NCBI GenBank assembly: GCA_947454705.1
Contig: CANGKZ010000010.1
Location: 62,001 to 126,000, forward strand
DNA: 64,000 bases
Origin: Verrucomicrobiota bacterium
Lineage (GTDB): Bacteria; Verrucomicrobiota; Verrucomicrobiia; Limisphaerales; UBA9464
Reading direction: 5' to 3'
Positions 3,981 to 22,056 of the stretch are shown piece by piece (position 1 is the first letter of the stretch; every line of letters starts with the position of its first letter). Under the pieces are notes generated by a model. That model saw only the letters and a list, made by a program, of their open reading frames with translations, searched no databases and was not told where the DNA came from. The position numbers and the translations under genes are program-made.

Positions 3981-4099
3981 GACCTTCTGAAAGGCCGCCT
4001 TTGTGCCGGACTGCGGGCCGTGAGACAAAGGAAAAGTTTTTGTCCCCGATGCTGTTTCAATAGGTGGAGCCCCTTTTTCCCCGTTCCCGGATTCGAATT

Positions 4100-4822
4100 T
4101 CAGGGCTGCCTTTTGGCGAACTTCGCGCGCCGGGCCTGTCGCAACGTCGCGGCCACGATCAACGCCCCGCCCACAACATACCCGTACTCCTCCGGCTCGG
4201 GTACGCCCACGAATTCCAATCCCCAACTCTTCAACTGCGCTTCCCCGCCGGTTTCCATGTCCATCAGGAACAGGGTCCATTCGCCGTTCGGGTCCATGCC
4301 GTTGAAGACGCTCAGCATGGAGGACGCAGAGCGCGTGGTCCCGGTGACTTCGGTGCCCGGGGTCACGCTGGGGCTGGACCGCCCGCTCGGCTGCCAGGAT
4401 CCGGTCAATGGCGCGTTGAGAAGACCCGTGACAATCCGGTAGGTGTGAACGTCGTTCGCCGCCTGATCGTCCAGGACGAACCCGGCCCCGAAGCCGCTGT
4501 CGCCGTATCCGGTGCTGTTCACATCGGCGCGTCCCACCCGGCTGAGCAGGACCGAGAACTGGGTCCCGTAGGACAGGCCGACGTAAAGATCCCCATTGTA
4601 CATCGGGCCGGTGCCGCCGGGCAGGGTTTCAATGTCGAGCCAGACGTTCAGATCCGTCAGCGACACCATGTTGATCCCGGTCACCAGCTGGGAATGCAGG
4701 ATGCCGCCTGGGTTGCCGTCGGGGATGGTGACGTTGACGTTGTTGAAGTTGACGATGACCGCTTGGGCCGACGCACAGAGCGTCAGGGAGGCGAGCCAGG
4801 TCGCGAGGGAATGGGTTCTCAC
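4100..4822 (-). CDS. Secreted PEP-CTERM protein with proprotein-convertase P-domain-like region
   Basis: Signal peptide; '[31 protein letters not shown]' resembles a P/Homo-B domain; C-terminal VPEP + hydrophobic helix + [11 protein letters not shown] tail. Confidence 0.75.
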
Positions 4823-4879: not shown

Positions 4880-7800
4880 TCAGGGCACGATTTCCGTGCG
4901 ATAGAACCGGGTCGCGCTGTTGAAGATGTTCGGATCGTTGACCGAGAGCCGCCCATTGGATTGCGAGGTCACGGGCCGGCCGCTGTTGAGAAGCGTCCAC
5001 GGAGTGCCGAGGGCGCTCTGCGCGTACACCAGGTACTGGCGATTTGGCGCGCCCTGGAACTGCACCGTGACATTTCGATTGCCCGGTCCTGCGGTGACCG
5101 CGTTGACCAGATTGAAGGTCGGCGTCTCCGTCGGAGCCGCGACAACATTCAACGTGACCGTGCCCGTGGAGGTTCCACCGAACCCATCATCGATGGTGTA
5201 GGTGAAGGTGTCGGTGGTGTTCGCCGTGGATCCATTGGCGCGATACGAAATCCAACCATCCGCCGCCACCACCGTCACGCCATTGGCCGAGGTGGTGGTT
5301 TGAGACACGAGGCTCAGCGAATCGCCTTCCGGATCGGTGTCGTTGGCGGTGAGCTTGGAGACGTGGAACTTCACCGTCTTTCCCTCGATGCGGGTCAAGG
5401 TGTCATCCGCTGCGACTGGGGATTGGTTGGGAATTCCTTTTCCGGAAATGAGAGCCGCCGCACCGCGCGTGTGCTCGGAGTTGGAATCGATTTCAACAAT
5501 CGCATCCCGAGCTCCCAGGGCCTTCGGAGTGAAGGTCACGGTGAAGGTGGTGAAATCCGACGAAGGCAGGACGCGCTGCTTCATGGCGGTCGTGTCGATC
5601 GCGTAATCCTCCGGGTGGTCCCCGTTGAGCCTGACTCCCCGGATGATCAAGGGATCGATCCCCACATTGACGACGGTGAACGTCCGGGTGACCGGTGCAC
5701 TCCCCACCCGCAGGTCGCCAAAGACGACCGGATCGGTTCCGTCGGATCGCGCGACGCCGACAGGTTGCTGGAGCACGACCCTGGATTCGGGGGGATAAAG
5801 TTCGAGCTCATCGATGGCAATCGGCAGTCCCGACGCTTGGGTCAGGATCCGGAAGCCGGTTGCCCGTATGTCCTGGAACGAGAAGAGATGCCGCACGCTG
5901 CCATCGGTGATCGCGGCGACTCCAGTGCCCGGATAGGTCACCGTGCCGATGGTCTTCCATTCCGAATCCGGAGTGCTGGCATTGACGGTATTGGCGGTGG
6001 TGTACTGAAGGGTGTAAGTGCCCTGCCAGCGATCCGCCGTGAGCGTTCCGGTATTGTCGCGCCCAAACGCCACCCGGTTGATCGGCTGCGGAAAGGAGGC
6101 CACTTGGACTCCCACAAAGCTGTTGGTGCTTCCGGCAATCCAACTGCCGCTCTCCCCGGTTCGAAGATCCACGACATTGTTAGCCGGATAGCCCCCTGAG
6201 CTGATTTCGTCCTTGGCAAAGGGAGATCCCCCAAGGGTGTATTTTTCGGGGACATCACCGCCGACCGGCACATCAAAAAGTTTCCGTGAAGCGAACACGG
6301 CCACGGTGAAGTTCGTGGTGGCGGTGTTGCCGGTTCGATCCGACGCGGTGGCCGTCACCGTGGTCACGCCCAGCGGGAACAGCGTTCCCGAAGGATGACT
6401 GTAACTCCACACCGGGACCTCGCCGGAATCGTCGGTGCCTGGCGGATCCGGAAAGATCACCCGCACGCCGGAGTCCGCGCTGGCCAAGGCGGTGATCTCC
6501 GACAGCGTGCCGATTACCGGCGCATGGGTGTCTGTTCCCGTGCCGGTCAGCCGGATCAGGAACTCAGGGAAATCCGGATCCATCGAAGCGATCCGCAAGT
6601 GCGCCGCGTAGTTGGTGTCCGCGCGCGGCACGAACACCGCCTCGAGGGTGGTGCTGCCACCCACCGGGACAAATCCCACGGTCGCTCCGGTATCGAGGAC
6701 GAATCCCGGGTCCTCAGCCGATGCATCCGCCAAGTCAACGGTGAGCGTCAGAGGAATCGCCCCGGTGTTGCGGAGGGTCACCGTGTTGGTCACACGGGTG
6801 CCGGCGGCATTGGTTCCGAAGGCGATCCCGGGCCAATTCGTCACGCCAGGCGTGGAATGGGTGTCGGCCAGAAACGGCGTGCCCGAGGGGAACTCCACCA
6901 ACAATCGGGGCGGCAATCCCACGGTCACAGTAAAGGTGCGCGTGGAGAAATTTCCCGCGCCATCCGTGGCGGTGATCGTCACCACCGTGTCTCCGACCGG
7001 GAACAGGGTTCCGCTGGCCTTGGAATAGCTGAGGATCGGAGCCTCCCCGGAATTGTCGGTGGCCGATGCCGGCGCGTAGTGAACCACCGCTCCGCCACTG
7101 CTCGTTTGAATCGCGGCCACGTTGACGTGCGATGCAATCACCGGCGGCGTGTGGTCCACGCCGATTCCGGACACGGGCAGCTGCAACACCGTCACGCCAT
7201 TTCGAATAAAGAACAGTTTGGACTGACGCACCCCGAGACCGGTCGGGTGAAAGGTCATCGTAAACGTGGTGGTGTCGGCATCCGTCTCCAATGCGAGGCG
7301 GGTCCCGGTCGTATCCACCAAGAAGTCGTCGCCGCCGACTTCCGACATCCCGATGTAATCGAAGTTCAACCGTCCCTGACCCACCCGGCGGATCGTGAAC
7401 GTTTTCGGCGTGCCGCTGGTGTTTTCGTTCTGACTTCCGAACAGCACCGGTCCCGCAGTGGGATCGATTTCGGTTCCGGCAGGTTGCTCCAGGACGATCC
7501 GGATCGGCGGTCCGTACAGTTCGAGTTCGTCGATGCAGATCTCCGGTCCGCCGCCCCCCGAGTTCACATTGATCCGGAAGCCGGTGGCGGCGACCGTTTT
7601 GAACGCATACAAGTGACGCAGGGCGGGTTGGCTCACCGCCGTGGCTCCGGATCCCGGATAATTGATCGTACCGATCGTCTGCCAGCTGGCATCCGGAGTC
7701 GTCTCATCGGGATTCGCGACTGTCGTAAACTGGAGCGTGTAGGATCCGTCGGTCCGATCCCCAAAAACTCCACGATTGTCGCGGCCAAAGGCCACGCGAT

Positions 7801-10800
7801 CGATGTACACCGGTGTCGCCCCAAGATTGATCCCCAGGAAACTGGCGGAGGCCCCGGCAATCCAACTCTCGCTGTTGCCGTAGGCGCGGTTGTTAATGTT
7901 GGCGATTGAGTGCGGGAACGAACCAATCACATCCTGCGCAAAGGGGGTTCCAGCATTCGCAAGGTTCGGCGGCACGGCATCTCCGGATCTGACCACCGGG
8001 GGATTGGCCGTGGTTTGAACGGTGACGGTGAACGTCGCGGTCGAGCTGTTGGACGAGGCATCCGTCGCCGTCACCGTGACCGTGGTCACGCCCCGCGGGA
8101 ACACCGTCCCGGCCGGATGCGAATAGGTCACCGTGGGGGTGCTATCGAAATCGTCGACCGCCTGCGCCGCCGGATAAAACACGGCGATACCGGCGGGTTC
8201 TGCAGCGGACACCACCAGGTTTGCCGGAGGCGTGAGCGTCGGCGGTGTCGTATCACTTCCGGTACCGCTGAGTGCCACGAAGAAGTCGGGAAATTCAGGA
8301 TCCTCGGAACGGATTCGCAGGCGGGTGGTTTGTCTCCCGAAAGTCACCGGGGCAAAAACCACCTCCATTGTTGTGCTCTCCCCGGCAGGGATCGTGGTCA
8401 GGGTCGAGTTGGTGCGAAGGCTGAATTCCGAGGCATTGCCACCCACCAACTCCAGACTCGCAATTCGCAGCGCCCCCAATCCGGAATTCCTCAACGTGAA
8501 AGTCCTGGTTCCGGTGGAATGAATTGCATGCGAACCAAAGGCCACGCTTGGCGGCGTGACCACGCGTGCGGTGATTCGATCCAGGGCCGCCGAGACATTG
8601 AGGACGTTGCTCAATCCACGAGCAAAGGTCAGCTGTCCGCCTGCGTCGTTGTCACCCGAGCCCCGCAGTGTCCCGTCGTCCAGCAATCCGAGAACAAAGC
8701 ACTGGCCGGAGGCGACGGCGCGAAGGGATCGTGGCGTCGGTGCGCTGGCCAGCACCCCCGCGCAGCCGCGACCCCATTGGACCACTCCCCCATCGCGCTT
8801 CACAGCAGTGGACGTCAACTCGCCCGCGGAGATCGCGACCACCTGGGTCAAACCACTCGGCACGTTCAGCGCTCCGTCCAGATCCTGGCCCCACGCAACC
8901 ACCGTTCCATCGGACTTCAACGCCAGGCTGTGAAAGCGACCCGCACTGACCGCCACCACTCCGGTCAATCCGTTGGGCACGTCGAGCTCGCCAACACCGT
9001 TTGCGCCCCAGGCCACCACCGTCCCGTCATCCTTGAGGGCCAGCGCATGCGTGCCCGCCGCGCTGATTGCCGTCACGCCGAGCAGACCCGACGGCGGAGA
9101 ATACGGGAAGGAGCCTGATCCACCCCACTGCACCACCGTCCCGTCCGACTTCAGTGCCACGGCAAACGCGCTCCCTGCGGCGATCGAAACAGCATCCGTA
9201 ATGGAAGCTGCCCCTGAGACCATCCCCTCGGTGTCCACGCCCCAACCCACCACCGAGCCATCGCGCTTGAGCGCCAGCGATTGCTGCGGGCCACTCACGA
9301 CCGACACCACCCCATTCAAGTCCGTCGGCAATTCCTCCTCGGAAGTGGTTCCAAGGCTTCCCCAAGCCCGAAGCAACACGGTCCCCGCCAGGGCGGTGCC
9401 GGCCGGTTGCTCCACACCAAGCTGCACCGGGCGCCGGACCACGATCGTGAAGGACGAAGTCGAAGCATTGTCGGCCGCATCCCGGGCCGTGATGTTCACC
9501 GTGTTCGTTCCGACCGGGAACCGGCTGCCACTCTCCGGTGAATAGGTCACCGTGGGGACTTCCCCGGAATCATCCGAAACCAGGACGGGATTGAAGTTCA
9601 CGACCACGCCGGTGGGATCGCTGGTGACCACCGTGCGATCGAGATGCTGCACGATGACCGGAGCCGTCACATCCACCCCTGTGCCGGTCAACGTAACGGA
9701 ATAGGTCGGCTGGTACGGATCATCCGACACGAGTTGCAGCTCCGTCGAGCGCGCCCCGGTTCCGCGCGGACGAAAGGCAACGCTCAACGCGGTGCTGCTT
9801 CCCGGAGGAACCGTGAGGAGCAGGCCCTTGGTGTTCACCTCGAACTCCGCGGCATTTCCACCGGTCGTTGAGACGCTGGAAAAATGAAGCGTCCCGCCGC
9901 CGGTGTTTTTCACCACGAAGGATTTCACGACCGGAGCACTGCCAATCGAGGCGCTTCCGAAGCCCACCGTGGGAGGCGTCCCCGCAAGCACGGTTCCGGC
10001 CGGCTGCTCCAACTCCAGCACCGGAGGCGGCGTCACCGTGACCGTAAAGGTGGAGGTGGATTCGTTGTTGTCCTCGTCCTTCGCCGTGATGGTGACCGTC
10101 GTCGTCCCCAAGGCGAAGAAGGCGCCACTCTCGATGCTGTACGCGAGCGTCACTGCGTTGCCCGAGTTATCGGTGACCACGGCAGGCTCGTAGGACACGT
10201 TGATCCCGGTGGCGTTGGTGGTCGCCACCACCACATTTGGATGCGACGCGATGACCGGGGGAATGGTGTCCACCCCGCTGCCTTGAAGCGGCACGTCAAA
10301 CACCGGAGTCGTCGGGTCATCCGTTGCAATTCTGAGCGTCGCGGATCGATCCCCGCTCTTGCGCGGATGGAACAGAACCGAAAACGACGTGACCCCATTC
10401 GTGGCCGGCACCACGGAGGACATGCTCGAAATGTTGAGAACAAAGTCTCCGACCATCGGTCCCACCAGCGCAACCGAGCGCACCGCCATCGACTTGGTCC
10501 CGGAATTGGTGAGGGAGAACGTGCGCAACGCGCTGTCCGTTTGGAGCTCCTGCGCATCGAAGGCGGGGAAAGCCGCTCCAGCGGTCAGCGGAGTTCCAGC
10601 AGGTTGCTCCACCGCGAGCTGCGCCGACTGCTCGTAGTTATAGAGCTCGAGTTCATCAATCGCCACCTCCTGGTCCGGGCGCTCGATCAGCAGCCGGAAA
10701 CCGGTGGCCTCGACCGGTGTGAAAGTGAAGACGTGCCGCAGACTCGGCGCCGAAAACCACACCGCATCCCGCAACGTGGAGTAGTCCACCGTACCCAGGG

Positions 10801-13800
10801 TCACCCAATCGCTGGCCGCGGTGGTTTCATCCGGATTGGGCACCGAGGTGAACTGGAAGGTGTAGCTGGCGATTGACCGATCCGGCGAGAAGCCGAGGTT
10901 GTCGCGCCCGAAGGCCACGCGTCGGATGCGAACCGGCGTCGCACCCAGATTGATCCCGACAAAGGAGTCGACGGAGTTCGCCAGCCAGCTGAAGGAGTTT
11001 CCGAAGTTTCCATCGTTCGCATGCGCGATGGAGTGGGGCGGACTGGGATAGACGTTTTTCGCAAACGCCGTGCCTGTCAGGGCGAGATTGGTCGCGTTAA
11101 TTCCACCGCCCTGTTCCACCAGCACCGGGGCGGGATACACCGTGTTGACGGTGACCTTGAAGGTGGACGTGGCCACATTCCCCGTCGCATCGGTCGCGGT
11201 AATGGTCACGAGAGTCGTCCCCAAAGGAAAATGGCTGCCGTTCGCGGGGCTGTATTCGACGGTCGGGGCGTTGCCGGAGTTGTCCGTCACGTCCGCCGCC
11301 GCAAAGGTAACCTGGGATCCCGTCGGATCGGCGGTCCCCACCATCACGTCCGGGTGCACCTGAATCACCGGCGGCATCGTATCTTTTCCGGTACCGGTCA
11401 GAGCCACGTCGAAGGTCGGTGTGACAGGATCGTCCGTGAGAAGACGCAGGGTGGCCGCCTGAATCCCGGTGGCTGCCGGACGGAACACCACTCCGACCTG
11501 CGTCGATCCACCACTGAATGCGACGTTGGTGTTCAGAGAAGTCGTGTCCAGGAAGTAACTTCCCGCGCCCGCCCCCAGGAAGGAGATGGACCGGATCTTG
11601 AGCGCCTTCGTGCCGGAGTTTTTCACCGTGAGGACCTGCGAAGCGCTCTCGCTCTGCACCTCCCGCTCGGCGTAGGTGAAGGTCGTGGTCCCGCTGTGAA
11701 TCACGGTGCCGACCGGTGCCTCCACCGCGAGCTCGGCCACCGGATCGTACCCGTAGAGTTCCAACTCATCGATGGCCGGGGGCAGACCATCCGTTTGAAT
11801 GCGCAACCGGAAACCGGTGGCTTCCACCGGAGAAATCGAGAACACGTGGCGCGTGTGGGGAGCGGTGAACAGTTCCGCATCCACCAGGGTTCGAAAATCA
11901 ACCGTTCCCAGCGTGATCCAACTGGAATCCGGCGTGGACCCATCCGGATTGGGCACCTGGGTGAACTCGAAGGTGCAGGTTCCAAAATCCCGCTCACGAA
12001 GCGCCCGCTGATTGTCACGGCCGAAGGCCACTCGTTTGATGAGAACCGGCGCGGCACCCAGGTTTATGCCTGCAAATGTGTCCGTCGATTCCGAGAGCCA
12101 GCTGAAGTCGTTGCCATAGTTGCCGTCGTTCAGGTTCGGAATGCTGTGCGGCGGCGCCGGATAAACATCCTTGGCAAACGCAGTGCCGGTTCGGGCGAGA
12201 TTGTTCGCGGCAAAGAATCCATCCTCCTCCACCAGAAACGGCGCCAAAGCCACGATGATCTGGAAGGTCGAGGTGCCGGCGTTGCCCTCGGCATCGGTGG
12301 CCGTGATCGTCACCACGTTCGTCCCCAGCGGGAAGAGGCTTCCGCTGGTCGGATTGTACGCAACCACCGGGGCGGCCGCGGCGTTGTCCGCGACCACCGC
12401 GGCATCGAAGTTGACGTTTACTCCAGCGCGATTCGTGGTCACGACGCGCACGTCCGGATGCGGCTCGATCACCGGCTTGGTGGTGTCCACGCCCACACCA
12501 CTCAGAAGGAGGTCGAACTGCGGAGCCTTCGGATCGTCGGTCCGAATGCGCAACGACGCCTCCCGCACGCCGGCGGCGGTGGGGCGGAACCACAATTGGA
12601 ACGAGGTGGATCCGTCGCCGAAGGGAACCACAGCAGCCATCGCGGTCGTATCGATCGCAAAATCCCCGGCATTCGCCCCGGACAAGGCCACCGACTGAAT
12701 CGCCAAGGTTCGGGTTCCAGAGTTGGTCAACGTGATCGTGCGCAGAGCGCTGTCGACCTTCAGTTCCTGGGCGGCGAAGGAAATGGTCGACGTTCCGGAA
12801 CTCAGCGGCGTCCCAGCCGGAGACTCCACCGCAAGGGCGGACACCGGCTCGTAGCCGTACAACTCGAGTTCATCGATCGCGATCTCCAACTCTTCGGAAT
12901 GGATCAGCAGACGGAAGCCGGTGGCTTCAACGGGGAAAATCGAGAAGAGGTGGCGCAACTGGGCCGAGGTGAAAAGAGTCTCATCCACCAGGGTCCGGTA
13001 ATCCACTGGACCGATCGTGGTCCAATCCTCGTCCGGGGTGGATTCGTTCGGATTGGGGACCGTGGTGAACTGGAAGGTGTACTGCGCTGTGGACCGGTCC
13101 AACGACAGACCGGTGTTGTCGCGACCGAAAGCCACGCGCCGGATGGGAAGCGGAGTCGCTCCCAAATTGATTCCCACAAAGGAATCGGGCGAGCCCGCCA
13201 GCCAGCTGAAGGAGTTGCCAAAGATTCCGTCGTTCGCATGCGGGATGGAGTGGGGCGGACTGGGGTAAACATTCTTGGCAAAGGCCGTCCCGGTCAGGGC
13301 GAGATTGGTGGCGGAGATCCTTCCCCCCTGCTCCACCAGCACCGGCGCTGGATAGATAAACCGGACAATCACCCGGAAGTTCGACGTGGAGACATTCCCG
13401 TTGGCGTCGGTCGCGGTGATGGTGACGGAATTCGTACCCAGCGGAAACAGGCTCCCATTCAAGGGCGTGTATCCAATTACAGGTGTCATCCCCGAGTTGT
13501 CAGAAGCCGTCGCCGCATCGAAGGTGACGTTCATTCCGGCAACGTTGGTGGTGGCCACCGTCACGTCCGGGTGGGATGTGATCACCGGGCTCGTGGTGTC
13601 CTGGCCGGTGCCGGACACCAACAAATCAAAGACAGGGGTGTTCGGATCATCGGTCCGAATCCGCAGCGTCGCCGTACGAACTCCCAGAGTCGTGGGACGG
13701 AACTCCAATTGAACCGAGGTCGATCCACCGCGAATCGGAACCGGTGAATTGAGGCCCGTCGTATCGAGTGAAAACTCTGCAGCGTTGGCCCCCAACAACG

Positions 13801-16800
13801 TCACCGATTCCACGTTCAGGATCCGATTGCCGATGTTCTTCAAAGTCACCGTGCGGGGCGCACTTGCCGACTGCACTTCCTGCGCTGCAAAGGTGAGCGT
13901 GGAGATCCCCGAGCTAAGCGGGGTGCCTGCCGGCTGCTCCACCGACAACTCGGGCAATGGGTCATACCCGTAGAGCTCCAGCTCATCGACGGCCAGCAGC
14001 TCCCCGGTGGACTGAACCAGCATTCGGAATCCGGTGACCTCCACCGGGGTGAAGGTGAAGGAATGACGCAGGTGCGGCTGGCTGAACAGGATCGGATCGC
14101 TGAGCGTTCGATAGTCTGCGGTGCCCAGCGTGAGCCACGCGGAATCCGGCGTGGATGCTCCAGGATTGGGAACCGTGGTGACCTGGAAAGTGTACAATCC
14201 CAGAGTCCTGTCGGGGAACCCGCCGCTGTTGTCGCGGCCGAATGCGACGCGCTGGATGCGAACCGGTGTCGCACCAAGATTGATCCCCACGAATGAATTC
14301 GTGGAGCCGGCGAGCCAGCTGAATTCATTCCGGTATTTCCCATCCTTCAAATTGGCAATGCTGTGGGGTGGGGCCGGATAAACGTCCTTCGCAAACGCGG
14401 TTCCCGTTTCGGCAAGATTGGTCCTGAGCAGAGTCCCGCCCTGCTCGACCAACACCGGCGCAGGAAACTGGAAATTCACGGTGACCTGGAACGTGGATGT
14501 GGAAGTATTTCCCACCTCGTCCCGGGCGGTGATGGTCACCGTCGTAACCCCCACCGGAAACACACTCCCGCTGGCCTTCGAATATCCCAGCACCGGCGCA
14601 AAGCCCGAATCATCCGTCGCCGAGGCCGCCGCATAGGACACCGCGGTCCCAGTCACGGAGGCGGTTTCCACGGCGACATTTCCGTGCAACGAGATCACCG
14701 GGGCCGTGGTGTCGTGTTCAAGCGAAAGTTCGAGTTCGTCGATGGCGAGGGCCGTGTCCGCGGCGAGAGTCTTCACCCGGAACCCGGTCGCCATCACCTT
14801 GGGGAACGCAAACACGTGACGCGCCGCGGGACTGGCAAATGCCCCTCCGCCGGTTGAGACAAAGTTGACGGTTCCAAGAGTGGTCCAGTTTTCATCCGAT
14901 GTGGACGCATCGGGATTGGCCACCGTGGTGAACTGAAGCGTGTAGGTGCCGAGGGCGAGATCGGTTTTGGTTCCGGTTTGATCCCGACCGAAGGCCACTT
15001 GATCGAAAGCCTGCGCGGTCGTCCCGAACGACACACCGGCAAAACTGTCCGCAGTGCCGGAGATCCAGCTGCTCGCATCGCCGTAGATCCCGTCGTTCAA
15101 CTTCGCGATGGCATGCGGTGCGACGGCCGATGCGTCCTTGGCGAAGGCCGTCCCGTTGGCGGCGCGATTGCGGGAAGTCTTGGTTCCGCCTTCACCGACG
15201 AAGGTGAGCCCCACGCCGGAGATCGTGTAGCCCGGCAGGCGCGTCACCACCACCGTGTTGGTCCGGGTGACACTCTCATCCGGCGCGGTCACACGAACCG
15301 TGATCGTATTTGCTCCCTCCGCGAGTGCGATCGATCCGCTCGTGCCGCCATTGGAAACCGCGGTCCCGTTCACCGTCACGGTGGCGAGCGGTTCCACCGC
15401 CAGCGGCGTCACCGTGACTGAAGCCACCGACCCCGCGACCGATGCGGTATAAGCCGTGGTGTTCGCCTCAAACGAGGGCGACAAGGTGCCGTTGCTGAGG
15501 GCGAGGCCCGCCAGGTTGGCGTTCGATGACACCGCCGCACCCGTCACCGTGAAGTCGAAACTCGCGTTCACCGCATCGTTGCTCGCGAGGTGAACCGATG
15601 CAGTGCTTCCTCCAGCGTGCACGGGCGCAAACACGACCGTAAACGTCGTGGACTCCCCAATCGCCAGACTCGTCGATGCTGGAGCCGAGACCGTGAAATT
15701 CGTCGCCCCGGGGCCCGTCACCGTGAAGGCCCCGAGGGTCAGCGCGGCGGTGCCCGCATTGCGGATCGTGAAGGTGTTGGTGGCGGTCGAACCGGCATTG
15801 ATGGAACCAAAGGAATTCGTGGAAGCGCCGTCGGTGAGCGTGGTTCCCACCGGTTGCTGCAGCGTGAGTTCAGCCTCGCCGCTGTAGAATTCCAGTTCAT
15901 CGATGCCTGCGCCCGACGGGGTGAGCAGTCGAAACGCCGTCGCACTGACCGGGTCAAATCCGAAGAGATGGCGTCGGGCCGGGGCGGAGAAATTTGAACC
16001 ACCCGCACCAAGGTAATCGATTTTTCCGAGCGTGGTCCAAATGGCGTCGGGCGCCGACGAATCCGGATTCACCGAAGTGGTGTACTGAAGAATGTAGATC
16101 CCGTTGAAGTGATCGCTGAAGACCCCGGTGTTGTCCCGGCCGAAGGCGACCCGATCCACCGTCACCGGAGTGGGCGACAGGACGATTCCGACAAAACTGT
16201 TCGTCGTGCCGCCAATCCAGCCGGAGGCGTTGCCGAAGACTCCGTTGTTGATCAACACCCCGGAATAAACTCCCCCGGGCAGGTCGTCCTTCGCAAAAAC
16301 GGTTTTGCCTGCGGAAAGATTGTGACGCGCGATCGTCCCGCCTTCCTGCAGCAGCGTGAGCCCACCCCCGTTCAGCACCACCCCCTGCGCCGGGCCGTAC
16401 AACTCGAACTCATCCACCGCGATGTAGTCACCGTCCGTGTGCACCTTCACCCGGAACCCGGTGGCCGCGACCTGCGGAAAGGAGATCAGGTGGCGAAGCT
16501 CCGGATGCGAGAAGTACGGCCCTCCGGCGACCTGGTAATCCAGTGTACCAATCGTGGTCCAACTGCCATCGGGCGTGGACGCATTGGGATACGGAACCGT
16601 GGTGAACTGCAGCGTGTAGGTACCGATGGCGCGGTCCTTCTGCGTGCCGGTATTGTCGCGGCTGAAGGCGATTCGATCGATCAGGATCGGCGTCGGTCCA
16701 AAGCTCACCCCAAAGCTCGAATCCGGCGATCCCGCCAGCCAGCTCTTCTCATCCCCGTATTCGCGATCCACCAGTCCTTCGATCGAGTGCGCTCCGAGGG

Positions 16801-18031
16801 GAAACAGATTCAACGCCACCGGAGTTCCCGCGGGGCCGAGGTTGTTCGCGGCGAACGATCCCCCTTCCTCCACGATCGACACCCCGGTCCCGGTGATGAC
16901 CACGCCGGTGAACGGGCTGTAGATTTCCAGCTCATCGATGCACAACACGGAGCCCGCCGACAGCGTGCGGATCCGGAGTCCGGTGGCCGTCACCGGGTCG
17001 AAGGCGAACCGATGCCGCAACGAGGGCGAGGCAAAGAACGGGCCACCGGCGGCCTGGTAGTCGAGGGTACCAATCGTGGTCCAACTGCTGTCCGGCGTGG
17101 AGGCATTGGGATTGGGCACCGTGGTGAACTGCACCGTGTACGTCCCGAGCGAGCGGTCGGAAAATGTTCCGGTATTGTCCCGGCCAAACGAGATGCGATC
17201 CACCGACACCGGGGTGCTGCCAAAGCTGATGCCCACAAAAGAATTCGCGGTTGCCCCGAGCCAGCTCTCGGCATTTCCGTAGGCTCGATTATTGATGTTC
17301 GCAATCGAGTGCGGAGGCAGGCTGAAGACATCCTGCGCAAACGGCGTTCCGCCCGGGGCGATGTTTCCGGTTCCTGCCGATCCCCCTTCCTCCACCAAAC
17401 GCAGCCCTCCGCCGGAGAGAACGATCCCGGTCGCCGGGCTGTAGATCTCCAGCTCGTCAATGCACAGCACCGCGCCCGACGAGACCGTCTTCAAGCGCAG
17501 GCCGGTCGCCGTGACCTGATTGAAGGTGTAGGCGTGTCGCAACGCGGGCGAAGAGAACAGATCCCCACCGGCGGACTGGTAATCGATCGTGCCCACCGTG
17601 GTCCAACTGCTGTCGGGCGTGGAGGCGTCCGGATTGGCCACCGTGGTGAACTGCAGCGTGTACACGCCCAACGCGCGATCGCCGAAAGCCCCCAGGTTGT
17701 CGCGACCGAAGGCGATCCGGTTCACCGCCACCGCAGTCGCGCCAAAACTCACCCCCACGAACGAATTGTCCGATCCCCCGAGCCAGCTCTGGCCGTTTCC
17801 GTACGAGCCATTGATAACATTCGGAATCGAGTGCGGTGGCAGACCGTACTCATCCTTCGCGAAAGCCGTTCCGCCGGTCGCAATGTTCCCGGAGCCAAAC
17901 GTGCCGCCCTCCTCCACCAGCGCCAGGCCGCCGCCGGAAATCACCACGCCGGCGGACGCCGCCCCGAGGGCAAGCGACCAAACGGACAAAACCAGGGACA
18001 GGCAGCGGAGGAAGGGAATCCGGGAACGCAT
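4880..18031 (-). CDS. Giant secreted multidomain surface protein (discoidin-like, ASH/choice-of-anchor-D-like, HYR-like, RCC1-like repeats)
   Basis: Uninterrupted ORF 4880-18205 (4441 aa). Start proposed at 18031 (MRSRIPFLRCLSLVLSVWSLALGAASA signal peptide). 11 copies of a '...FVGI.LGATPV.I.RVAFGRDN.G...' unit, plus EQPAGT...F...T..NSGT, HYR-like and RCC1-like segments. Confidence 0.85.
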   Translation of the reverse strand: MRSRIPFLRCLSLVLSVWSLALGAASAGVVISGGGLALVEEGGTFGSGNIATGGTAFAKDEYGLPPHSIPNVINGSYGNGQSWLGGSDNSFVGVSFGATAVAVNRIAFGRDNLGAFGDRALGVYTLQFTTVANPDASTPDSSWTTVGTIDYQSAGGDLFSSPALRHAYTFNQVTATGLRLKTVSSGAVLCIDELEIYSPATGIVLSGGGLRLVEEGGSAGTGNIAPGGTPFAQDVFSLPPHSIANINNRAYGNAESWLGATANSFVGISFGSTPVSVDRISFGRDNTGTFSDRSLGTYTVQFTTVPNPNASTPDSSWTTIGTLDYQAAGGPFFASPSLRHRFAFDPVTATGLRIRTLSAGSVLCIDELEIYSPFTGVVITGTGVSIVEEGGSFAANNLGPAGTPVALNLFPLGAHSIEGLVDREYGDEKSWLAGSPDSSFGVSFGPTPILIDRIAFSRDNTGTQKDRAIGTYTLQFTTVPYPNASTPDGSWTTIGTLDYQVAGGPYFSHPELRHLISFPQVAATGFRVKVHTDGDYIAVDEFELYGPAQGVVLNGGGLTLLQEGGTIARHNLSAGKTVFAKDDLPGGVYSGVLINNGVFGNASGWIGGTTNSFVGIVLSPTPVTVDRVAFGRDNTGVFSDHFNGIYILQYTTSVNPDSSAPDAIWTTLGKIDYLGAGGSNFSAPARRHLFGFDPVSATAFRLLTPSGAGIDELEFYSGEAELTLQQPVGTTLTDGASTNSFGSINAGSTATNTFTIRNAGTAALTLGAFTVTGPGATNFTVSAPASTSLAIGESTTFTVVFAPVHAGGSTASVHLASNDAVNASFDFTVTGAAVSSNANLAGLALSNGTLSPSFEANTTAYTASVAGSVASVTVTPLAVEPLATVTVNGTAVSNGGTSGSIALAEGANTITVRVTAPDESVTRTNTVVVTRLPGYTISGVGLTFVGEGGTKTSRNRAANGTAFAKDASAVAPHAIAKLNDGIYGDASSWISGTADSFAGVSFGTTAQAFDQVAFGRDQTGTKTDLALGTYTLQFTTVANPDASTSDENWTTLGTVNFVSTGGGAFASPAARHVFAFPKVMATGFRVKTLAADTALAIDELELSLEHDTTAPVISLHGNVAVETASVTGTAVSYAAASATDDSGFAPVLGYSKASGSVFPVGVTTVTITARDEVGNTSTSTFQVTVNFQFPAPVLVEQGGTLLRTNLAETGTAFAKDVYPAPPHSIANLKDGKYRNEFSWLAGSTNSFVGINLGATPVRIQRVAFGRDNSGGFPDRTLGLYTFQVTTVPNPGASTPDSAWLTLGTADYRTLSDPILFSQPHLRHSFTFTPVEVTGFRMLVQSTGELLAVDELELYGYDPLPELSVEQPAGTPLSSGISTLTFAAQEVQSASAPRTVTLKNIGNRILNVESVTLLGANAAEFSLDTTGLNSPVPIRGGSTSVQLEFRPTTLGVRTATLRIRTDDPNTPVFDLLVSGTGQDTTSPVITSHPDVTVATTNVAGMNVTFDAATASDNSGMTPVIGYTPLNGSLFPLGTNSVTITATDANGNVSTSNFRVIVRFIYPAPVLVEQGGRISATNLALTGTAFAKNVYPSPPHSIPHANDGIFGNSFSWLAGSPDSFVGINLGATPLPIRRVAFGRDNTGLSLDRSTAQYTFQFTTVPNPNESTPDEDWTTIGPVDYRTLVDETLFTSAQLRHLFSIFPVEATGFRLLIHSEELEIAIDELELYGYEPVSALAVESPAGTPLSSGTSTISFAAQELKVDSALRTITLTNSGTRTLAIQSVALSGANAGDFAIDTTAMAAVVPFGDGSTSFQLWFRPTAAGVREASLRIRTDDPKAPQFDLLLSGVGVDTTKPVIEPHPDVRVVTTNRAGVNVNFDAAVVADNAAAAPVVAYNPTSGSLFPLGTNVVTITATDAEGNAGTSTFQIIVALAPFLVEEDGFFAANNLARTGTAFAKDVYPAPPHSIPNLNDGNYGNDFSWLSESTDTFAGINLGAAPVLIKRVAFGRDNQRALRERDFGTCTFEFTQVPNPDGSTPDSSWITLGTVDFRTLVDAELFTAPHTRHVFSISPVEATGFRLRIQTDGLPPAIDELELYGYDPVAELAVEAPVGTVIHSGTTTFTYAEREVQSESASQVLTVKNSGTKALKIRSISFLGAGAGSYFLDTTSLNTNVAFSGGSTQVGVVFRPAATGIQAATLRLLTDDPVTPTFDVALTGTGKDTMPPVIQVHPDVMVGTADPTGSQVTFAAADVTDNSGNAPTVEYSPANGSHFPLGTTLVTITATDATGNVATSTFKVTVNTVYPAPVLVEQGGGINATNLALTGTAFAKNVYPSPPHSIAHANDGNFGNSFSWLANSVDSFVGINLGATPVRIRRVAFGRDNLGFSPDRSIASYTFQFTSVPNPDETTAASDWVTLGTVDYSTLRDAVWFSAPSLRHVFTFTPVEATGFRLLIERPDQEVAIDELELYNYEQSAQLAVEQPAGTPLTAGAAFPAFDAQELQTDSALRTFSLTNSGTKSMAVRSVALVGPMVGDFVLNISSMSSVVPATNGVTSFSVLFHPRKSGDRSATLRIATDDPTTPVFDVPLQGSGVDTIPPVIASHPNVVVATTNATGINVSYEPAVVTDNSGNAVTLAYSIESGAFFALGTTTVTITAKDEDNNESTSTFTVTVTPPPVLELEQPAGTVLAGTPPTVGFGSASIGSAPVVKSFVVKNTGGGTLHFSSVSTTGGNAAEFEVNTKGLLLTVPPGSSTALSVAFRPRGTGARSTELQLVSDDPYQPTYSVTLTGTGVDVTAPVIVQHLDRTVVTSDPTGVVVNFNPVLVSDDSGEVPTVTYSPESGSRFPVGTNTVNITARDAADNASTSSFTIVVRRPVQLGVEQPAGTALAGTVLLRAWGSLGTTSEEELPTDLNGVVSVVSGPQQSLALKRDGSVVGWGVDTEGMVSGAASITDAVSIAAGSAFAVALKSDGTVVQWGGSGSFPYSPPSGLLGVTAISAAGTHALALKDDGTVVAWGANGVGELDVPNGLTGVVAVSAGRFHSLALKSDGTVVAWGQDLDGALNVPSGLTQVVAISAGELTSTAVKRDGGVVQWGRGCAGVLASAPTPRSLRAVASGQCFVLGLLDDGTLRGSGDNDAGGQLTFARGLSNVLNVSAALDRITARVVTPPSVAFGSHAIHSTGTRTFTLRNSGLGALRIASLELVGGNASEFSLRTNSTLTTIPAGESTTMEVVFAPVTFGRQTTRLRIRSEDPEFPDFFVALSGTGSDTTPPTLTPPANLVVSAAEPAGIAVFYPAAQAVDDFDSTPTVTYSHPAGTVFPRGVTTVTVTATDASSNSSTATFTVTVQTTANPPVVRSGDAVPPNLANAGTPFAQDVIGSFPHSIANINNRAYGNSESWIAGASASFLGINLGATPVYIDRVAFGRDNRGVFGDRTDGSYTLQFTTVANPDETTPDASWQTIGTINYPGSGATAVSQPALRHLYAFKTVAATGFRINVNSGGGGPEICIDELELYGPPIRIVLEQPAGTEIDPTAGPVLFGSQNENTSGTPKTFTIRRVGQGRLNFDYIGMSEVGGDDFLVDTTGTRLALETDADTTTFTMTFHPTGLGVRQSKLFFIRNGVTVLQLPVSGIGVDHTPPVIASHVNVAAIQTSSGGAVVHYAPASATDNSGEAPILSYSKASGTLFPVGDTVVTITATDGAGNFSTRTFTVTVGLPPRLLVEFPSGTPFLADTHSTPGVTNWPGIAFGTNAAGTRVTNTVTLRNTGAIPLTLTVDLADASAEDPGFVLDTGATVGFVPVGGSTTLEAVFVPRADTNYAAHLRIASMDPDFPEFLIRLTGTGTDTHAPVIGTLSEITALASADSGVRVIFPDPPGTDDSGEVPVWSYSHPSGTLFPLGVTTVTATASDRTGNTATTNFTVAVFASRKLFDVPVGGDVPEKYTLGGSPFAKDEISSGGYPANNVVDLRTGESGSWIAGSTNSFVGVQVASFPQPINRVAFGRDNTGTLTADRWQGTYTLQYTTANTVNASTPDSEWKTIGTVTYPGTGVAAITDGSVRHLFSFQDIRATGFRILTQASGLPIAIDELELYPPESRVVLQQPVGVARSDGTDPVVFGDLRVGSAPVTRTFTVVNVGIDPLIIRGVRLNGDHPEDYAIDTTAMKQRVLPSSDFTTFTVTFTPKALGARDAIVEIDSNSEHTRGAAALISGKGIPNQSPVAADDTLTRIEGKTVKFHVSKLTANDTDPEGDSLSLVSQTTTSANGVTVVAADGWISYRANGSTANTTDTFTYTIDDGFGGTSTGTVTLNVVAAPTETPTFNLVNAVTAGPGNRNVTVQFQGAPNRQYLVYAQSALGTPWTLLNSGRPVTSQSNGRLSVNDPNIFNSATRFYRTEIVP
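5790..17960 (-). repeat. Eleven ~165-aa discoidin-like coding repeats
   Basis: FGRDN-type signature counted 11 times. Unit 3' ends lie near 5795, 7516, 10640, 11755, 12860, 13970, 14730, 15890, 16400, 16925 and 17445, each ending ELELY/ELEIY or similar. Confidence 0.85.
8553..9388 (-). other. RCC1-like beta-propeller segment within the giant CDS
   Basis: Repeated LALK[SRD]DGTVVAWG-type blades (about 6-7) between 'EQPAGTALAGT' and 'PPSVAFGS'. Confidence 0.8.
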
Positions 18032-18257
18032 GGCGGGGGAAGGAAGCCGGCGTCCCACGGAATCAGAGGTGCTGGAGGAACCCTCATCGCATCGGATGGA
18101 AGCGTGGGGAACAGGGAATGCCGGATACATCGGCATCTTGGTACTACGCCGAACGGTGAGTCCGGTATCGGATGAAGATCCTACAACGCGCTCAACCCGG
18201 TTCACCGACGAACCAGTTCTGGAACACCAAGTCGCCGGGAACGACGGCCCGTCGCCC

Positions 18258-19052
18258 TCACTTGCCCAAAAACTTCACCACCGCCTCCGTGCGATTGTTC
18301 ACGCGGAGCTTTTCATAGATGCGCTGCAGATGGGTCCGCACCGTGGAGATGCCGATCCCGAGTCGGTCGGCGATTTCCTTGTACTGGCTGCCCTCGGCGA
18401 GGGCCTCGACGATTTCGCGCTCCCGCGGGGAAAGCGATGCCGTCTCGTCATTCCGCGGCTTCACCGGTTTGGCGAAGGATTCCACGACCTTTCGCGCAAT
18501 CAGGCTCGTCATCGGCGCCCCGCCCGCATTCAGATCGCGAATCGCCCCCAGCAATTCCTCGGGCACCGATCGCTTCAGCAGATACCCGGTGGCCCCGGCC
18601 TGCAGCGAACGGAAGATCAACTCCACATCCTCATACACCGTGAGCATGAGGAACTGCGTTCCCGGCATCACGCCCTTCAGCTCGCGAACGCAATCGATGC
18701 CGGATTTTCCCGGCAGATTGATGTCCATCAACACCACGGCCGGCGCGGCTTCCGGAAGTTGGGCCAGCGCCTGCTCCGCGTTGGCGTAGGCGCCCACGCA
18801 ATGAAATCCGCGCGACCGTTCGAGTCGGGAGATGAAGCTGGCACGGAGCCGGTCGTCGTCTTCCACAACGGCCACCCGGATTCCCGGATCGTCTTGATTG
18901 GGAGTAATCAAAGGAAGCGAAGGTGACGCATCGAAACCGAAAGCGCCATCGGATGAAAGGAGGACACGGCAGGCTCGGGAATTCGAAAAATCATGGATTG
19001 GAAAGCGGCAATCGGAAGCGAACGCGGGTGCCCCCCGTGGCGGGACGCTCAA
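18258..19052 (-). CDS. NarL/LuxR-family response regulator
   Basis: Receiver VAVVEDDDRLR...VVLMDINLPGKSGIDCVREL and HTH LSPREREIVEALAEGSQYKEIADRLGIGISTVRTHLQRIYEKL. True start is probably internal; the first ~45 aa overlap the upstream kinase gene and look non-coding. Confidence 0.88.
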   Translation of the reverse strand: MSVPPRGAPAFASDCRFPIHDFSNSRACRVLLSSDGAFGFDASPSLPLITPNQDDPGIRVAVVEDDDRLRASFISRLERSRGFHCVGAYANAEQALAQLPEAAPAVVLMDINLPGKSGIDCVRELKGVMPGTQFLMLTVYEDVELIFRSLQAGATGYLLKRSVPEELLGAIRDLNAGGAPMTSLIARKVVESFAKPVKPRNDETASLSPREREIVEALAEGSQYKEIADRLGIGISTVRTHLQRIYEKLRVNNRTEAVVKFLGK

Positions 19053-22000
19053 TCACGCACCCACCGCCGATGGCTTCGAGACGTTGACGCATGTTGCCCA
19101 GGCCGTCGCTGGTCGGGGCAACCCCGGCGGGATCGAATCCCCGACCGTTGTCCTCGACTTCAATCTCCAAAACCCCATCCGGAACGCGGATCCGGAGGTG
19201 CACCTCGGTGGCCCCGGAATGTTTGATCACATTGGCGATCGCCTCCTTGTACGCGAGGAACAACTGGTGGCGTCGTTCCGCGATGATCGGCACCACGGAA
19301 ATCCCGGGCTCCACCCGGTAGTGCAGGCGCAATCCACGCGACCCGAGCGTGGACTCCGCATGGTGGGTCAGGTAATCCACCAGGCCCACGGTCGTGTCGT
19401 GACGCGGGTTCACCGTCCACACCAACTCATCCAGTTTCCCCACGATCTCGCGGGAAAGATCCGCGATCTGTCCAAGCCTCGGATGCGCCGCTGCGGGGTC
19501 CGCATCCGGACCAAGATCCTCATCAATCGGCGATCCGAGCAGCGTCAACTGCGTCAGAGCCGAGCCCACATCGTCGTGAATGTCCCTCGCGATGCGCGCA
19601 CGCTCCAGGTCCACGGCGCGCTGGCGTTCCAACTCGGCGAGGCGCTGACGCACCTTGCGCTGGGAAACGAACGTCGCACCCCATACGGCGATTCCCAGCG
19701 TCGCAGCCGCCGAACTGGATCGAAACCAGAGCGTCTCCCAGAAGAACGGCAGCACGGTGAAAGAAAGCGTCGCGCCGGAGTTGTTCCACACACCGTCGTT
19801 GTTGCAGGCCACCACGCGGAAGCGATGTTCGCCGGGTTCGAGACCATTGAAGGCCGCGAAGCGGTCGCGCCCGGACTCAAGCCACTCTCCCTGCTGCTCC
19901 TCCAGCCGGTAGCGGAATCGCACCTTCCCCGGCGCGGTAAAGCTCAGTGCGGCGTAATGAATCTCCACCCGACGCGCCCCGGCCGGGATCTTCTGCCCTT
20001 GCGACGCAGGCAGGATTCGCCCATCGACGCGCATCTGCTCGATCACAACCGGGGGAGGATTCGTGTTCACCGGAATCGCAGCGGGATTCACCGACACCAG
20101 CCCGCGCATCGTGGCAAACCACATCCGCCCGTCCGGCGTCTGGGCAATTTTTGGCTGCGAATTGGCCGTGCCGTGGATGGTGATGATCCCGTCATCACGA
20201 TTGAAACTGTCGCACACAATCGATGCCACGCGCCCGTCCAGCTGCGACTCCAGTTCCGCACGCCGGACCCGGAAAAGTCCACGCCGCGAGGTGAACCAAA
20301 AATATCCCAGACCATCCTCGGCGATGCCGCAGATGGACTTCTGCGCCAGCCCTTGTTCGATCGACACACCCGAGATGCGATCCTGCTTCAATCGAAACAA
20401 CCCGCCCCCCTCCGATCCAATCCAAAGCACCCGCTCCCGGTCCAGGTACAGGGACTGAATTTCGGCGAAGGGAAGCCCCCGTTCTTTCCCGTACGCGAAG
20501 AACCTGCCCTCCCGCCGACACCAGAGACCATGTCCGATGGTTCCGATCCACAGGGTTCCATCCGGTTCGCACACCATTGAACTAATCGACCTTCCTCCCG
20601 GCCAATTGGTTTCCACCATCGCGGTCAGATTCGTCGCGTGCATCAGGTTGTCGCCGCCCGCCCAGACTCCCCCCTTGGGATCATCACAAATCGCGGTCAC
20701 ACGCACCCCTCGCACAAGACTGTCCACCTGCGCTCCCTCGCGACGGAACAACCCCGCAACCAAATCCCCCACCCAAAGCCGCTCCTGGGGATCGATGTGA
20801 AGGCCCCACGGAAAGGAATCGAATCCACCGACTGGCTTGAGCGCATCGCCCTTCATGCGCAGCAATCCGCTGCTGTGGGTCGCGACCCAAAGTCCGCCGC
20901 CATCAGAGGCGGGAGCCGGGAGGACTCCATAGACAATCTCACTCCCCAATCCCGCCTCCGCGCCATAAGTGCGGAAGCGCCGCGGCGTGACCACGCTCAC
21001 CCCGCCCCCGTCGGTCGCCACCCAGAGGTTCCCCTCGCGATCGAACTCGAAGTATCGAATTCGATCCGCCCCGAGGCCATCGCGCTTGGTAAAAATCCGA
21101 ACATCCCCGGAAGGAGAAATCTTCGCCAATCCCAGCTCACGGAACCCCACCCAGATGTTCCCGTACGAATCCTCCGATATGGCCATGAACTCGTCGGCCG
21201 GCAATTCCGGCAGCGCGCGAGGTGCCGTCAAGGTCCCGTCAGGCATCAGCGCGCGACGCTCAAAAATGCGGCCCGACTGGGTCAGCATGGAATATTCGCC
21301 CGACGAGCGAATATAAAGCCGGGGCCGGGTGAACTCCTTCACCCCGGTGGGATCCGATGCCGCAACAAACTTCCCGTCCCGAATGATCCCGCATTGTTGA
21401 TTTTTCGTTGTCGGGTCCAGGTACGATCCCCACTCCGGACCAAATCCCGGCCACCGGAAGCGGCTGACTCCCGGCGGCAAATCCACCATCGATTGCGACT
21501 TCGCCACGCCTTCCGGCCACCGATAATACAATCCCAAAGCCGTCCCGAGGATTACCCTGCCCTTTCCATCCAAGTTCCACGAGGCGTAGGCCGCAGGGAG
21601 CGTTACCGGACGGAAACCCAATTCGTCCCGGAGAATCAAATCGCCCAGCTCATTCCCCACCCAGAGGCGGCCTTCGAGATCTGCCGTCACCGAATAAATC
21701 ATCCGGCTTTTTAGCACCGGCGTGTCATCCCGATCAAAAGTGGTAAACCGAACCCCGTCAAACCGCGCCAATCCCGCACCGGTCGCGCACCAGATATAGC
21801 CCTGCCGATCCTGGGTGAGGCTGAAGACGGCATTATTTCCCAAGCCTTCATCCGCCGTGTAAGTGCGAATCAGGTAGTCCGTCGGCGCCACCGGCGCGGC
21901 GTCCAACCGAAGGATCGCGGTAAGACACAGCCACACGATCCTCCAGAGGACGCGAGATCGGAAATTGCAGGGCACGAGCAAGACCCTCCACAGCCACCCG

Positions 22001-22056
22001 CTCCACCGCAAGCCTCGCATCCGGGGAGCGGGAGCCAGGACCGAGTTCGAAGGCAA
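18991..22056 (-). CDS. Sensor histidine kinase with two-component-propeller, Y_Y_Y-like and HisKA_3/HATPase domains
   Basis: Repeated 'DRQGYIWCATGAGLARFDG'/'DREGNLWVATDGGGV' blades; 'RARIARDIHDDVGSALTQLTLL' HisKA_3 motif; 'VEDNGRGFDPAG...GLGNMRQRLEAIGG' HATPase. Confidence 0.92.
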   Translation of the reverse strand: MPSNSVLAPAPRMRGLRWSGWLWRVLLVPCNFRSRVLWRIVWLCLTAILRLDAAPVAPTDYLIRTYTADEGLGNNAVFSLTQDRQGYIWCATGAGLARFDGVRFTTFDRDDTPVLKSRMIYSVTADLEGRLWVGNELGDLILRDELGFRPVTLPAAYASWNLDGKGRVILGTALGLYYRWPEGVAKSQSMVDLPPGVSRFRWPGFGPEWGSYLDPTTKNQQCGIIRDGKFVAASDPTGVKEFTRPRLYIRSSGEYSMLTQSGRIFERRALMPDGTLTAPRALPELPADEFMAISEDSYGNIWVGFRELGLAKISPSGDVRIFTKRDGLGADRIRYFEFDREGNLWVATDGGGVSVVTPRRFRTYGAEAGLGSEIVYGVLPAPASDGGGLWVATHSSGLLRMKGDALKPVGGFDSFPWGLHIDPQERLWVGDLVAGLFRREGAQVDSLVRGVRVTAICDDPKGGVWAGGDNLMHATNLTAMVETNWPGGRSISSMVCEPDGTLWIGTIGHGLWCRREGRFFAYGKERGLPFAEIQSLYLDRERVLWIGSEGGGLFRLKQDRISGVSIEQGLAQKSICGIAEDGLGYFWFTSRRGLFRVRRAELESQLDGRVASIVCDSFNRDDGIITIHGTANSQPKIAQTPDGRMWFATMRGLVSVNPAAIPVNTNPPPVVIEQMRVDGRILPASQGQKIPAGARRVEIHYAALSFTAPGKVRFRYRLEEQQGEWLESGRDRFAAFNGLEPGEHRFRVVACNNDGVWNNSGATLSFTVLPFFWETLWFRSSSAAATLGIAVWGATFVSQRKVRQRLAELERQRAVDLERARIARDIHDDVGSALTQLTLLGSPIDEDLGPDADPAAAHPRLGQIADLSREIVGKLDELVWTVNPRHDTTVGLVDYLTHHAESTLGSRGLRLHYRVEPGISVVPIIAERRHQLFLAYKEAIANVIKHSGATEVHLRIRVPDGVLEIEVEDNGRGFDPAGVAPTSDGLGNMRQRLEAIGGGCVIERPATGGTRVRFRLPLSNP

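Follow-up and report, generated by a model that had tools for sequence, protein, structure and literature searches.

The window, a stretch of 64,000 nucleotides from contig CANGKZ010000010.1 of a Verrucomicrobiota bacterium, contains a giant gene on the minus strand, which lies directly downstream of a co-directional response regulator gene and of a sensor kinase gene that overlaps the regulator ORF (Table 1). The first-pass annotation described an unbroken 13.3-kb ORF (4880-18205, ~4400 aa), and the frame does indeed translate without a stop, giving 4,441 residues when counted from the GTG at 18205; translation, however, probably begins at 18031, with the ATG of codon 59, because the codon-position differences relative to the congeneric locus L015 turn coding-like there. 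Thus, in the codons 5' of the ATG, all three positions differ alike (0.38/0.28/0.45), whereas 3' of it a coding pattern is seen (0.12/0.06/0.36; dN 0.088, dS 0.69). The residues that follow this ATG, MRSRIPFLRCLSLVLSVWSLALGAASA, would form a signal peptide, and at the matching position L015 carries a hydrophobic leader of another sequence; presumably, the giant is exported. With dN/dS values against L015 of 0.13 and 0.25 in its N-terminal and C-terminal parts, respectively, the frame is, on this codon comparison, under purifying selection. An assembly frameshift as the source of the long frame can be rejected: besides this selection, the unit copies have diverged from one another, and the same architecture recurs in independent assemblies.

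Table 1. Features of the giant gene and its upstream neighbours; amino acid (aa) positions are counted from the GTG frame (last residue = 4441)
Feature	Coordinates	Strand	Residues	Remarks
Giant gene, likeliest CDS	4880..18031	-	4,383 aa	ATG at 18031, stop 4880-4882; start from codon-position differences
Putative signal peptide	17951..18031	-		Judged by eye from sequence, without predictor
Unit 1	17432..17956	-	84-258	F5/8-like
Unit 2	16910..17434	-	258-432	F5/8-like; modelled with AlphaFold2
Unit 3	16388..16912	-	432-606	F5/8-like
Unit 4	15875..16390	-	606-777	F5/8-like
Cadherin-like sandwich	15239..15496	-	904-989	PF12733; follows ASH/choice-of-anchor-D domain (aa ~776-890)
Unit 5	14714..15238	-	990-1164	F5/8-like; followed by HYR 1 (aa 1165-1246)
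Unit 6	13961..14488	-	1240-1415	F5/8-like; opens first of four U-ASH-HYR cassettes, ~370 aa each
Unit 7	12848..13375	-	1611-1786	F5/8-like; its U-ASH-HYR cassette (12242-13375) modelled
Unit 8	11744..12271	-	1979-2154	F5/8-like
Unit 9	10631..11158	-	2350-2525	F5/8-like
RCC1-type propeller	8606..9376	-	~2944-3200	Seven blade motifs; nested in ASH domain
Unit 10	7505..8035	-	3391-3567	F5/8-like
Unit 11	5786..6313	-	3965-4140	F5/8-like; sub-threshold PF00754 match
Big_9/tandem-95-like Ig domain	5147..5428	-	about 4260-4355	PF17963
C-terminal 'RFYR' domain	4883..5143	-	4355-4441	Without Pfam or NCBIfam family; ~48 genome matches
NarL-type response regulator	18258..19052	-		Response_reg + GerE; directly upstream of giant gene
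Sensor histidine kinase	18991..22056	-		Reg_prop propeller, Y_Y_Y, HisKA_3, HATPase_c

The protein is built around eleven copies of a unit, as had been noted initially, although they align over 175 rather than ~165 residues; pairwise identities range from 37 to 73%, and 18 columns are invariant. Unit 2 is closer to unit 2 of L015 (82%) than to the other units compared (73, 55 and 53%), and, given this and the low dN/dS values, the array looks old and maintained. The HYR-like, ASH-like and cadherin-like regions and the tandem-95-like sequence near the C-terminus of the first reading were all recovered. In a scan of the whole protein, HYR (PF02494) matched nine stretches (E 2e-100) and choice-of-anchor D/ASH (NF012200, PF15780), to which the ASH-like regions correspond, ten (E 4e-95); these models, together with RCC1_2 (PF13540) and Big_9, exceed their curated cut-offs, and the cadherin-like sandwich was found with E 6e-15. 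The RCC1 propeller and the C-terminal domain had previously been overlooked. The former is inserted between the first strand of an ASH domain (LGVEQPAGTALAG) and its remainder (aa 3205-3317), a nesting that is conserved in six more loci (L016, L017, L019, L020, L022 and L023). Ig-like spacers make up approximately half of the protein. In the model of the unit 7 cassette, the individual domains are confidently predicted, whereas their relative orientation is not (pTM 0.55).

The discoidin-like layout suspected from the sequence is supported by structure prediction. An AlphaFold2 model of unit 2, based on an alignment of 92 sequences, has a pLDDT of 96.2 and a pTM of 0.91, and a Foldseek search of the PDB with this model returned galactose-binding-like folds (E 2e-7 to 1e-5): the best match is the CBM71 module of BgaA (4cua, E 2e-7, TM ~0.6), accompanied by CBM32 modules (E 1e-5 to 1e-6), F-type lectins and chitosan-binding modules. 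At the fold level, the modelled unit is a member of the galactose-binding-like/F5-8 beta-sandwich superfamily. Its sequence is as distinctive as first proposed: among the five window units scanned against PF00754, only unit 11 gave a match, at 16.9 bits against a gathering cut-off of 28.2, and across the 92 unit members 86 had no match and six did, with a best E of 2.7e-5. No NCBIfam model fits the unit, and its profile has no significant full-length match in the PDB; the profile match to CBM71 spans almost the whole module, albeit with an E of 0.44, which does not place the unit in that family by sequence. It is a recognisable F5/8-fold module without a family name.

A fold of this kind need not imply glycan recognition, as phospholipid, collagen and protein are also among the ligands of F5/8 folds. 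The units could be mainly structural, or bind lipids or proteins as F5/8 folds outside CBM32 do, within a rod or matrix protein, and we assign this reading a small, though not negligible, probability: it would fit the APC10 and SUN domains that also appear among the structural matches and the large share of Ig-like spacers, but the top matches are mostly carbohydrate-binding modules, and a purely structural unit would not usually keep polar loop residues invariant or almost so, as seen for R85, D86, N87, D93 and R94, even if these are partly a general F5/8 signature.

A beta-type domain with the final residues RFYRTEIVP forms the C-terminus. It occurs at approximately 48 places in the genome, nearly always at a stop codon, and is common to many exported proteins of the host; as judged from this distribution, it is a candidate for an undescribed sorting domain and, if so, would bear on how Verrucomicrobiota display giant proteins. 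Anchoring by PEP-CTERM was considered and rejected, as the beta-type C-terminus is absent from the 17 PEP-CTERM matches of the genome, which has four exosortase matches; the giant bears no PEP-CTERM or other recognised anchor. C-termini that read as PEP-CTERM-like are found in related unit-bearing proteins of other PVC genomes (L032, L036, L038, L043, L044 and L047). Regarding type IX secretion, domain scans matched no sorting-tail family in the giant, and a search of the host genome for SprA_N, run without a positive control, retrieved none. The C-terminus also bears on whether the giant is the stalk of a contact-dependent or polymorphic toxin, as a very long repeat mosaic with a propeller might suggest. 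We consider this highly improbable and reject the polymorphic form of it: rather than a variable tip, the C-terminus is constant, recurring in numerous unrelated proteins of the host and retaining 83% identity in the relative L031; moreover, no toxin domain scored above cut-off, and the downstream gene encodes an aspartokinase, with no candidate immunity gene noted.

Upstream of the giant gene, the kinase–regulator pair is conserved: orthologous pairs precede the related genes in L015, L019, L021 and L034, where the regulators are 77-82% identical (tblastn). More generally, a GerE/LuxR-type gene adjoins 12 of the 16 genes for giants combining units with Ig-like spacers for which upstream sequence is available; the host genome as a whole carries only 19 GerE genes. 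This recurrent pairing is a new observation. A cultured bacterium, Brevifollis gellanilyticus NBRC 108608 (L029), shows it too, with seven units and a divergent GerE gene. The giant is not the pair's only partner, since in G003 and G005 the pair precedes a different, PEP-CTERM-like protein. The presence of regulator genes beside this and most related giant genes points to a switchable surface adhesin, and a giant lectin-like protein with a dedicated LuxR/NarL-type regulator offers a testable gene pairing.

The CBM-type folds, and a sensor layout that Bacteroidetes use for glycan sensing (Reg_prop/Y_Y_Y), might also suggest a scaffoldin-like protein that captures substrate and concentrates it for co-expressed polysaccharide-degrading enzymes. 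This seems distinctly improbable, as none of the neighbours examined encodes a glycoside hydrolase, lyase, sulfatase or transporter (besides the aspartokinase gene, those scanned encode an SIS-CBS isomerase, an inositol-monophosphatase-like protein and a cyclophilin), and a scan of the whole protein found no cohesin or dockerin domain.

On balance, we favour, with some confidence, a protein that is exported and acts as a multivalent adhesin or scaffold of a matrix, probably under the control of the adjacent pair; this is close to the surface adhesin or glycan-binding scaffold that we, like the first-pass annotation, infer. Eleven carbohydrate-binding-type modules, mostly in repeated U-ASH-HYR cassettes, would be carried on a rod whose Ig-like spacers are ASH and HYR domains, with the propeller as a side-domain inside one ASH. 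Many weak sites of one type may bind a repetitive polysaccharide by avidity, whether that of the cell's own matrix or of a substrate or algal surface, and the sensor kinase and NarL-type regulator would probably switch expression of the giant. We counted against the adhesin reading that no carbohydrate-active enzyme adjoins the gene and that a recognised anchor is lacking.

The unit-bearing relatives belong mainly to Verrucomicrobiota. A phylum-wide search at E <= 1e-35 matched five of 388 genomes, such that the independent sample for the regulator pairing stayed small. Low-scoring genome matches to the unit are mostly not giants but PSD1 (DUF1549/DUF1553-type) proteins, assigned by reading their sequences and present in most relatives; within this other protein type, the unit profile is matched over its N-terminal half only (positions ~25-105, E 1e-7 to 1e-11). 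A limited search of the open-access literature found no description of the protein family, the regulator pairing or the C-terminal domain. In a speculative extension that, taken as a whole, we regard as unlikely, the unit would define a carbohydrate-binding module family new to science, spread over Verrucomicrobiota and other PVC lineages. It would be housed in giant adhesins, each with its own GerE-type regulator, and these would be exported and sorted via an undescribed C-terminal domain serving as a tag on dozens of secreted proteins in each genome of the phylum.

Among known systems, the locus recalls the hybrid two-component systems of Bacteroidetes polysaccharide loci, in which a Reg_prop and Y_Y_Y sensor with a histidine kinase likewise accompanies a surface glycan-binding-type protein. 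Here, however, kinase and regulator are encoded by separate genes rather than forming a single chain of kinase, receiver and HTH, the regulator is of the NarL/GerE type, and neither SusCD nor CAZymes were seen among the neighbours examined. The unit shares with PF00754/CBM32 the galactose-binding-like beta-sandwich, a strand leading into the RD(N) loop, and the C-terminal DELE(L/I)Y strand, but is longer (~175 versus ~127 residues); it has additional strands at its N-terminus, and a long loop precedes the W118 strand. CBM71, whose hallmark is the binding of LacNAc and lactose on a tryptophan platform, is similar in size (175 aa) as well as being the best structural match, although in BgaA from Streptococcus pneumoniae it is part of a galactosidase, whereas the unit resides in giant non-enzymatic proteins. 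Within BgaA, CBM71, with affinities of ~250-370 uM for LacNAc and lactose, mediates adherence (PMC4161441), an instance of weak modules that act by avidity.

The minus-strand frame described in the first-pass annotation runs for 4,441 codons without a stop, and its likely start, judged from sequence, is the ATG at 18031, since it is here that the codon-position pattern, relative to the DNA of the congeneric locus L015, switches from non-coding to coding. Downstream of this ATG, dN and dS against L015 are 0.088 and 0.69; against L031, a second related locus, the values over 1,251 C-terminal codons are 0.21 and 0.85. The long frame is not an assembly artefact, a possibility raised with the original description. 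The host assembly is 5.45 Mb, and its near relatives in public genomes are Verrucomicrobiota MAGs, the best being L015 (82% protein identity over one unit).

All 11 copies of the repeat reported earlier were located, each unit being ~175 aa rather than ~165 aa. Units 1–4 stand in tandem at the N-terminus, and units 5 to 11 are interspersed with spacers, namely, nine HYR domains, ten choice-of-anchor-D (ASH) domains, one cadherin-like sandwich and a C-terminal Big_9; domain scans thus recover the HYR-, ASH-, cadherin- and tandem-95-like parts first read from the sequence, the last of these being Big_9. Pairs of window units are 37–73% identical, with 18 invariant columns across the 11. Unit 2 is nearest to unit 2 of L015 (82%; the other three reach 73, 55 and 53%), which is consistent with an origin of the array predating the species split. 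An RCC1-type propeller interrupts an ASH domain, with LGVEQPAGTALAG before it and the strand PSVAFGS after it, and the same nesting is seen in six related loci (L016, L017, L019, L020, L022 and L023).

Features of the giant locus and classes of unit-bearing genes at related loci (L-numbers)
Feature	Position	Strand	Remarks
Giant gene	4880-18205	-	open frame
RFYR domain	4883-5143	-
RFYR domain	23595-23834	+
RCC1-type propeller in ASH	8255-9376	-	propeller with seven motifs at aa 2944-3200
NarL-type regulator	18258-19052		co-directional, directly upstream of giant gene
Reg_prop/Y_Y_Y histidine kinase	18991-22056		upstream, co-directional with giant gene
Paired unit genes (12)			window, L015, L017, L018 twice, L019, L020, L021, L024, L028, L029, L034
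Unpaired unit genes (4)			L016, L025, L030, L035
Half-unit PSD1-type proteins			L012, L013, L060-L063 and similar; read from sequence

An AlphaFold2 model of the unit, built from a 92-row alignment drawn from the window and related loci (pLDDT 96.2, pTM 0.91), matched CBM71 of BgaA in a Foldseek search of the PDB (E 2e-7), as well as chitosan-binding modules, CBM32s and F-lectins; this structure prediction and fold search, proposed in the first-pass annotation, bears out the discoidin-like layout. The distinctive sequence noted there is equally evident: PF00754 matches six of the 92 alignment members (best E 2.7e-5), no NCBIfam model matches the unit and a sequence-profile search of the PDB gave no convincing match. 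As it combines an F5/8-like fold with a sequence outside known families, the unit belongs to the F5/8 superfamily as a divergent member that has no name of its own.

The strong form of the unit is rare: at E <= 1e-35, it is matched in 5/388 genomes sampled phylum-wide, and at the looser E <= 0.001, relatives mostly give weak matches to half a unit. PSD1-type proteins (DUF1549/DUF1553-like, by sequence reading) with one or two half-units occur in most relatives. Most unit-bearing loci are from Verrucomicrobiota; a small number come from MAGs placed in Planctomycetota, Omnitrophota and other groups, and some of these may be mis-binned. Several unit proteins of other species terminate in PEP-CTERM-like anchors, supporting the view that the fold is used extracellularly. 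At L032:2149-5715 (-), the N-terminus of a Reg_prop sensor histidine kinase includes an F5/8 stretch resembling the unit; the kinase gene is oriented divergently from two full-unit genes, and sensor and effector have a common fold.

The final 87 residues of the giant protein form a domain terminating in RFYRTEIVP, for which, as far as tested, no Pfam or NCBIfam model scores above cut-off. Matches (~48 in the host genome, and in 43 of the 115 phylum genomes sampled) share an invariant W and a final (R)FYR motif, and their carriers are otherwise unrelated. The domain ends <=4 residues from the stop in 18 of 20 host-genome matches checked, and <=8 residues from it in 17 of 20 places in other genomes; of the remaining three, two end 10 and 23 residues before the stop and one, L123, was read on the wrong strand. 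We hypothesize that it is a candidate sorting or capping domain. The host genome has four exosortase matches and ~17 PEP-CTERM matches; two exosortase matches lie at G000:C10:13427-16513, on the same contig ~45 kb before the window start.

Orthologues of the kinase–regulator pair precede a homologous giant gene in L015, L019, L021 and L034. Among 58 relatives searched, six genomes have regulator orthologues of at least 80% identity, four preceding a giant gene and two, in G003 and G005, a PEP-CTERM-like protein. In two congeners (L078:4431-5375 and L079:4218-5138), a PEP-CTERM-like protein takes the place of the giant behind the orthologous pair, which suggests that the regulated surface protein has been exchanged. 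Elsewhere, giant genes are adjoined by GAF-LuxR regulators (L018, L020 and L028), GerE proteins without a recognized sensor domain (L017 and L029, the latter from Brevifollis gellanilyticus) or a receiver-GerE regulator (L024). GerE/LuxR regulators of several subfamilies, co-directional or divergent, sit immediately beside large unit genes in L017, L018, L020, L024, L028, L029, L110 and L112. Overall, of the 16 unit genes that also encode ASH or HYR domains and have 1 kb or more of sequence upstream, 12 have a GerE-type neighbour, L034 being included by separate reading, as its open frame overlaps the regulator. The host genome, the only one from which regulator density was taken, has 19 GerE genes; with adjacency modelled as 2 x 19 among 4,500 genes, an assumed total, the chance probability is ~1e-22, or ~5e-9 if only nine lineages with five pairings count as independent. 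Neither figure allows for shared ancestry or for the gene class having been chosen post hoc, and both should be taken to mean no more than 'not chance'. Pairing is uncommon among unit genes that have no Ig-like spacers; of six further loci added once the pairing had been proposed, two (L110 and L112) carry a GerE neighbour.

Most likely, the giant protein is a secreted rod: it would be exported carrying many weak glycan-binding sites, which would act by avidity, as an adhesin or matrix scaffold, and the adjacent sensor would turn on its expression. Coding, the fold of the unit, the architecture and the conservation of the neighbours are shown by the analysis; export, the ligand, surface location and regulation are inferred. 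Rival readings of the same architecture are a structural rod that binds no glycan and a scaffold that captures substrate; a toxin stalk is improbable. The parts of the protein are of known kinds; the unit family, nested propeller and regulator pairing appear undescribed, no description having been found in the searchable open-access literature, a limited set. A parallel to the unit is CBM71, which mediates adherence, has weak affinity for LacNAc and lactose and, not being recognizable by sequence, was discovered through fold prediction (PMC4161441). By analogy, which is not proof, the unit resembles CBM71 in that both escape sequence recognition and were revealed by fold prediction.
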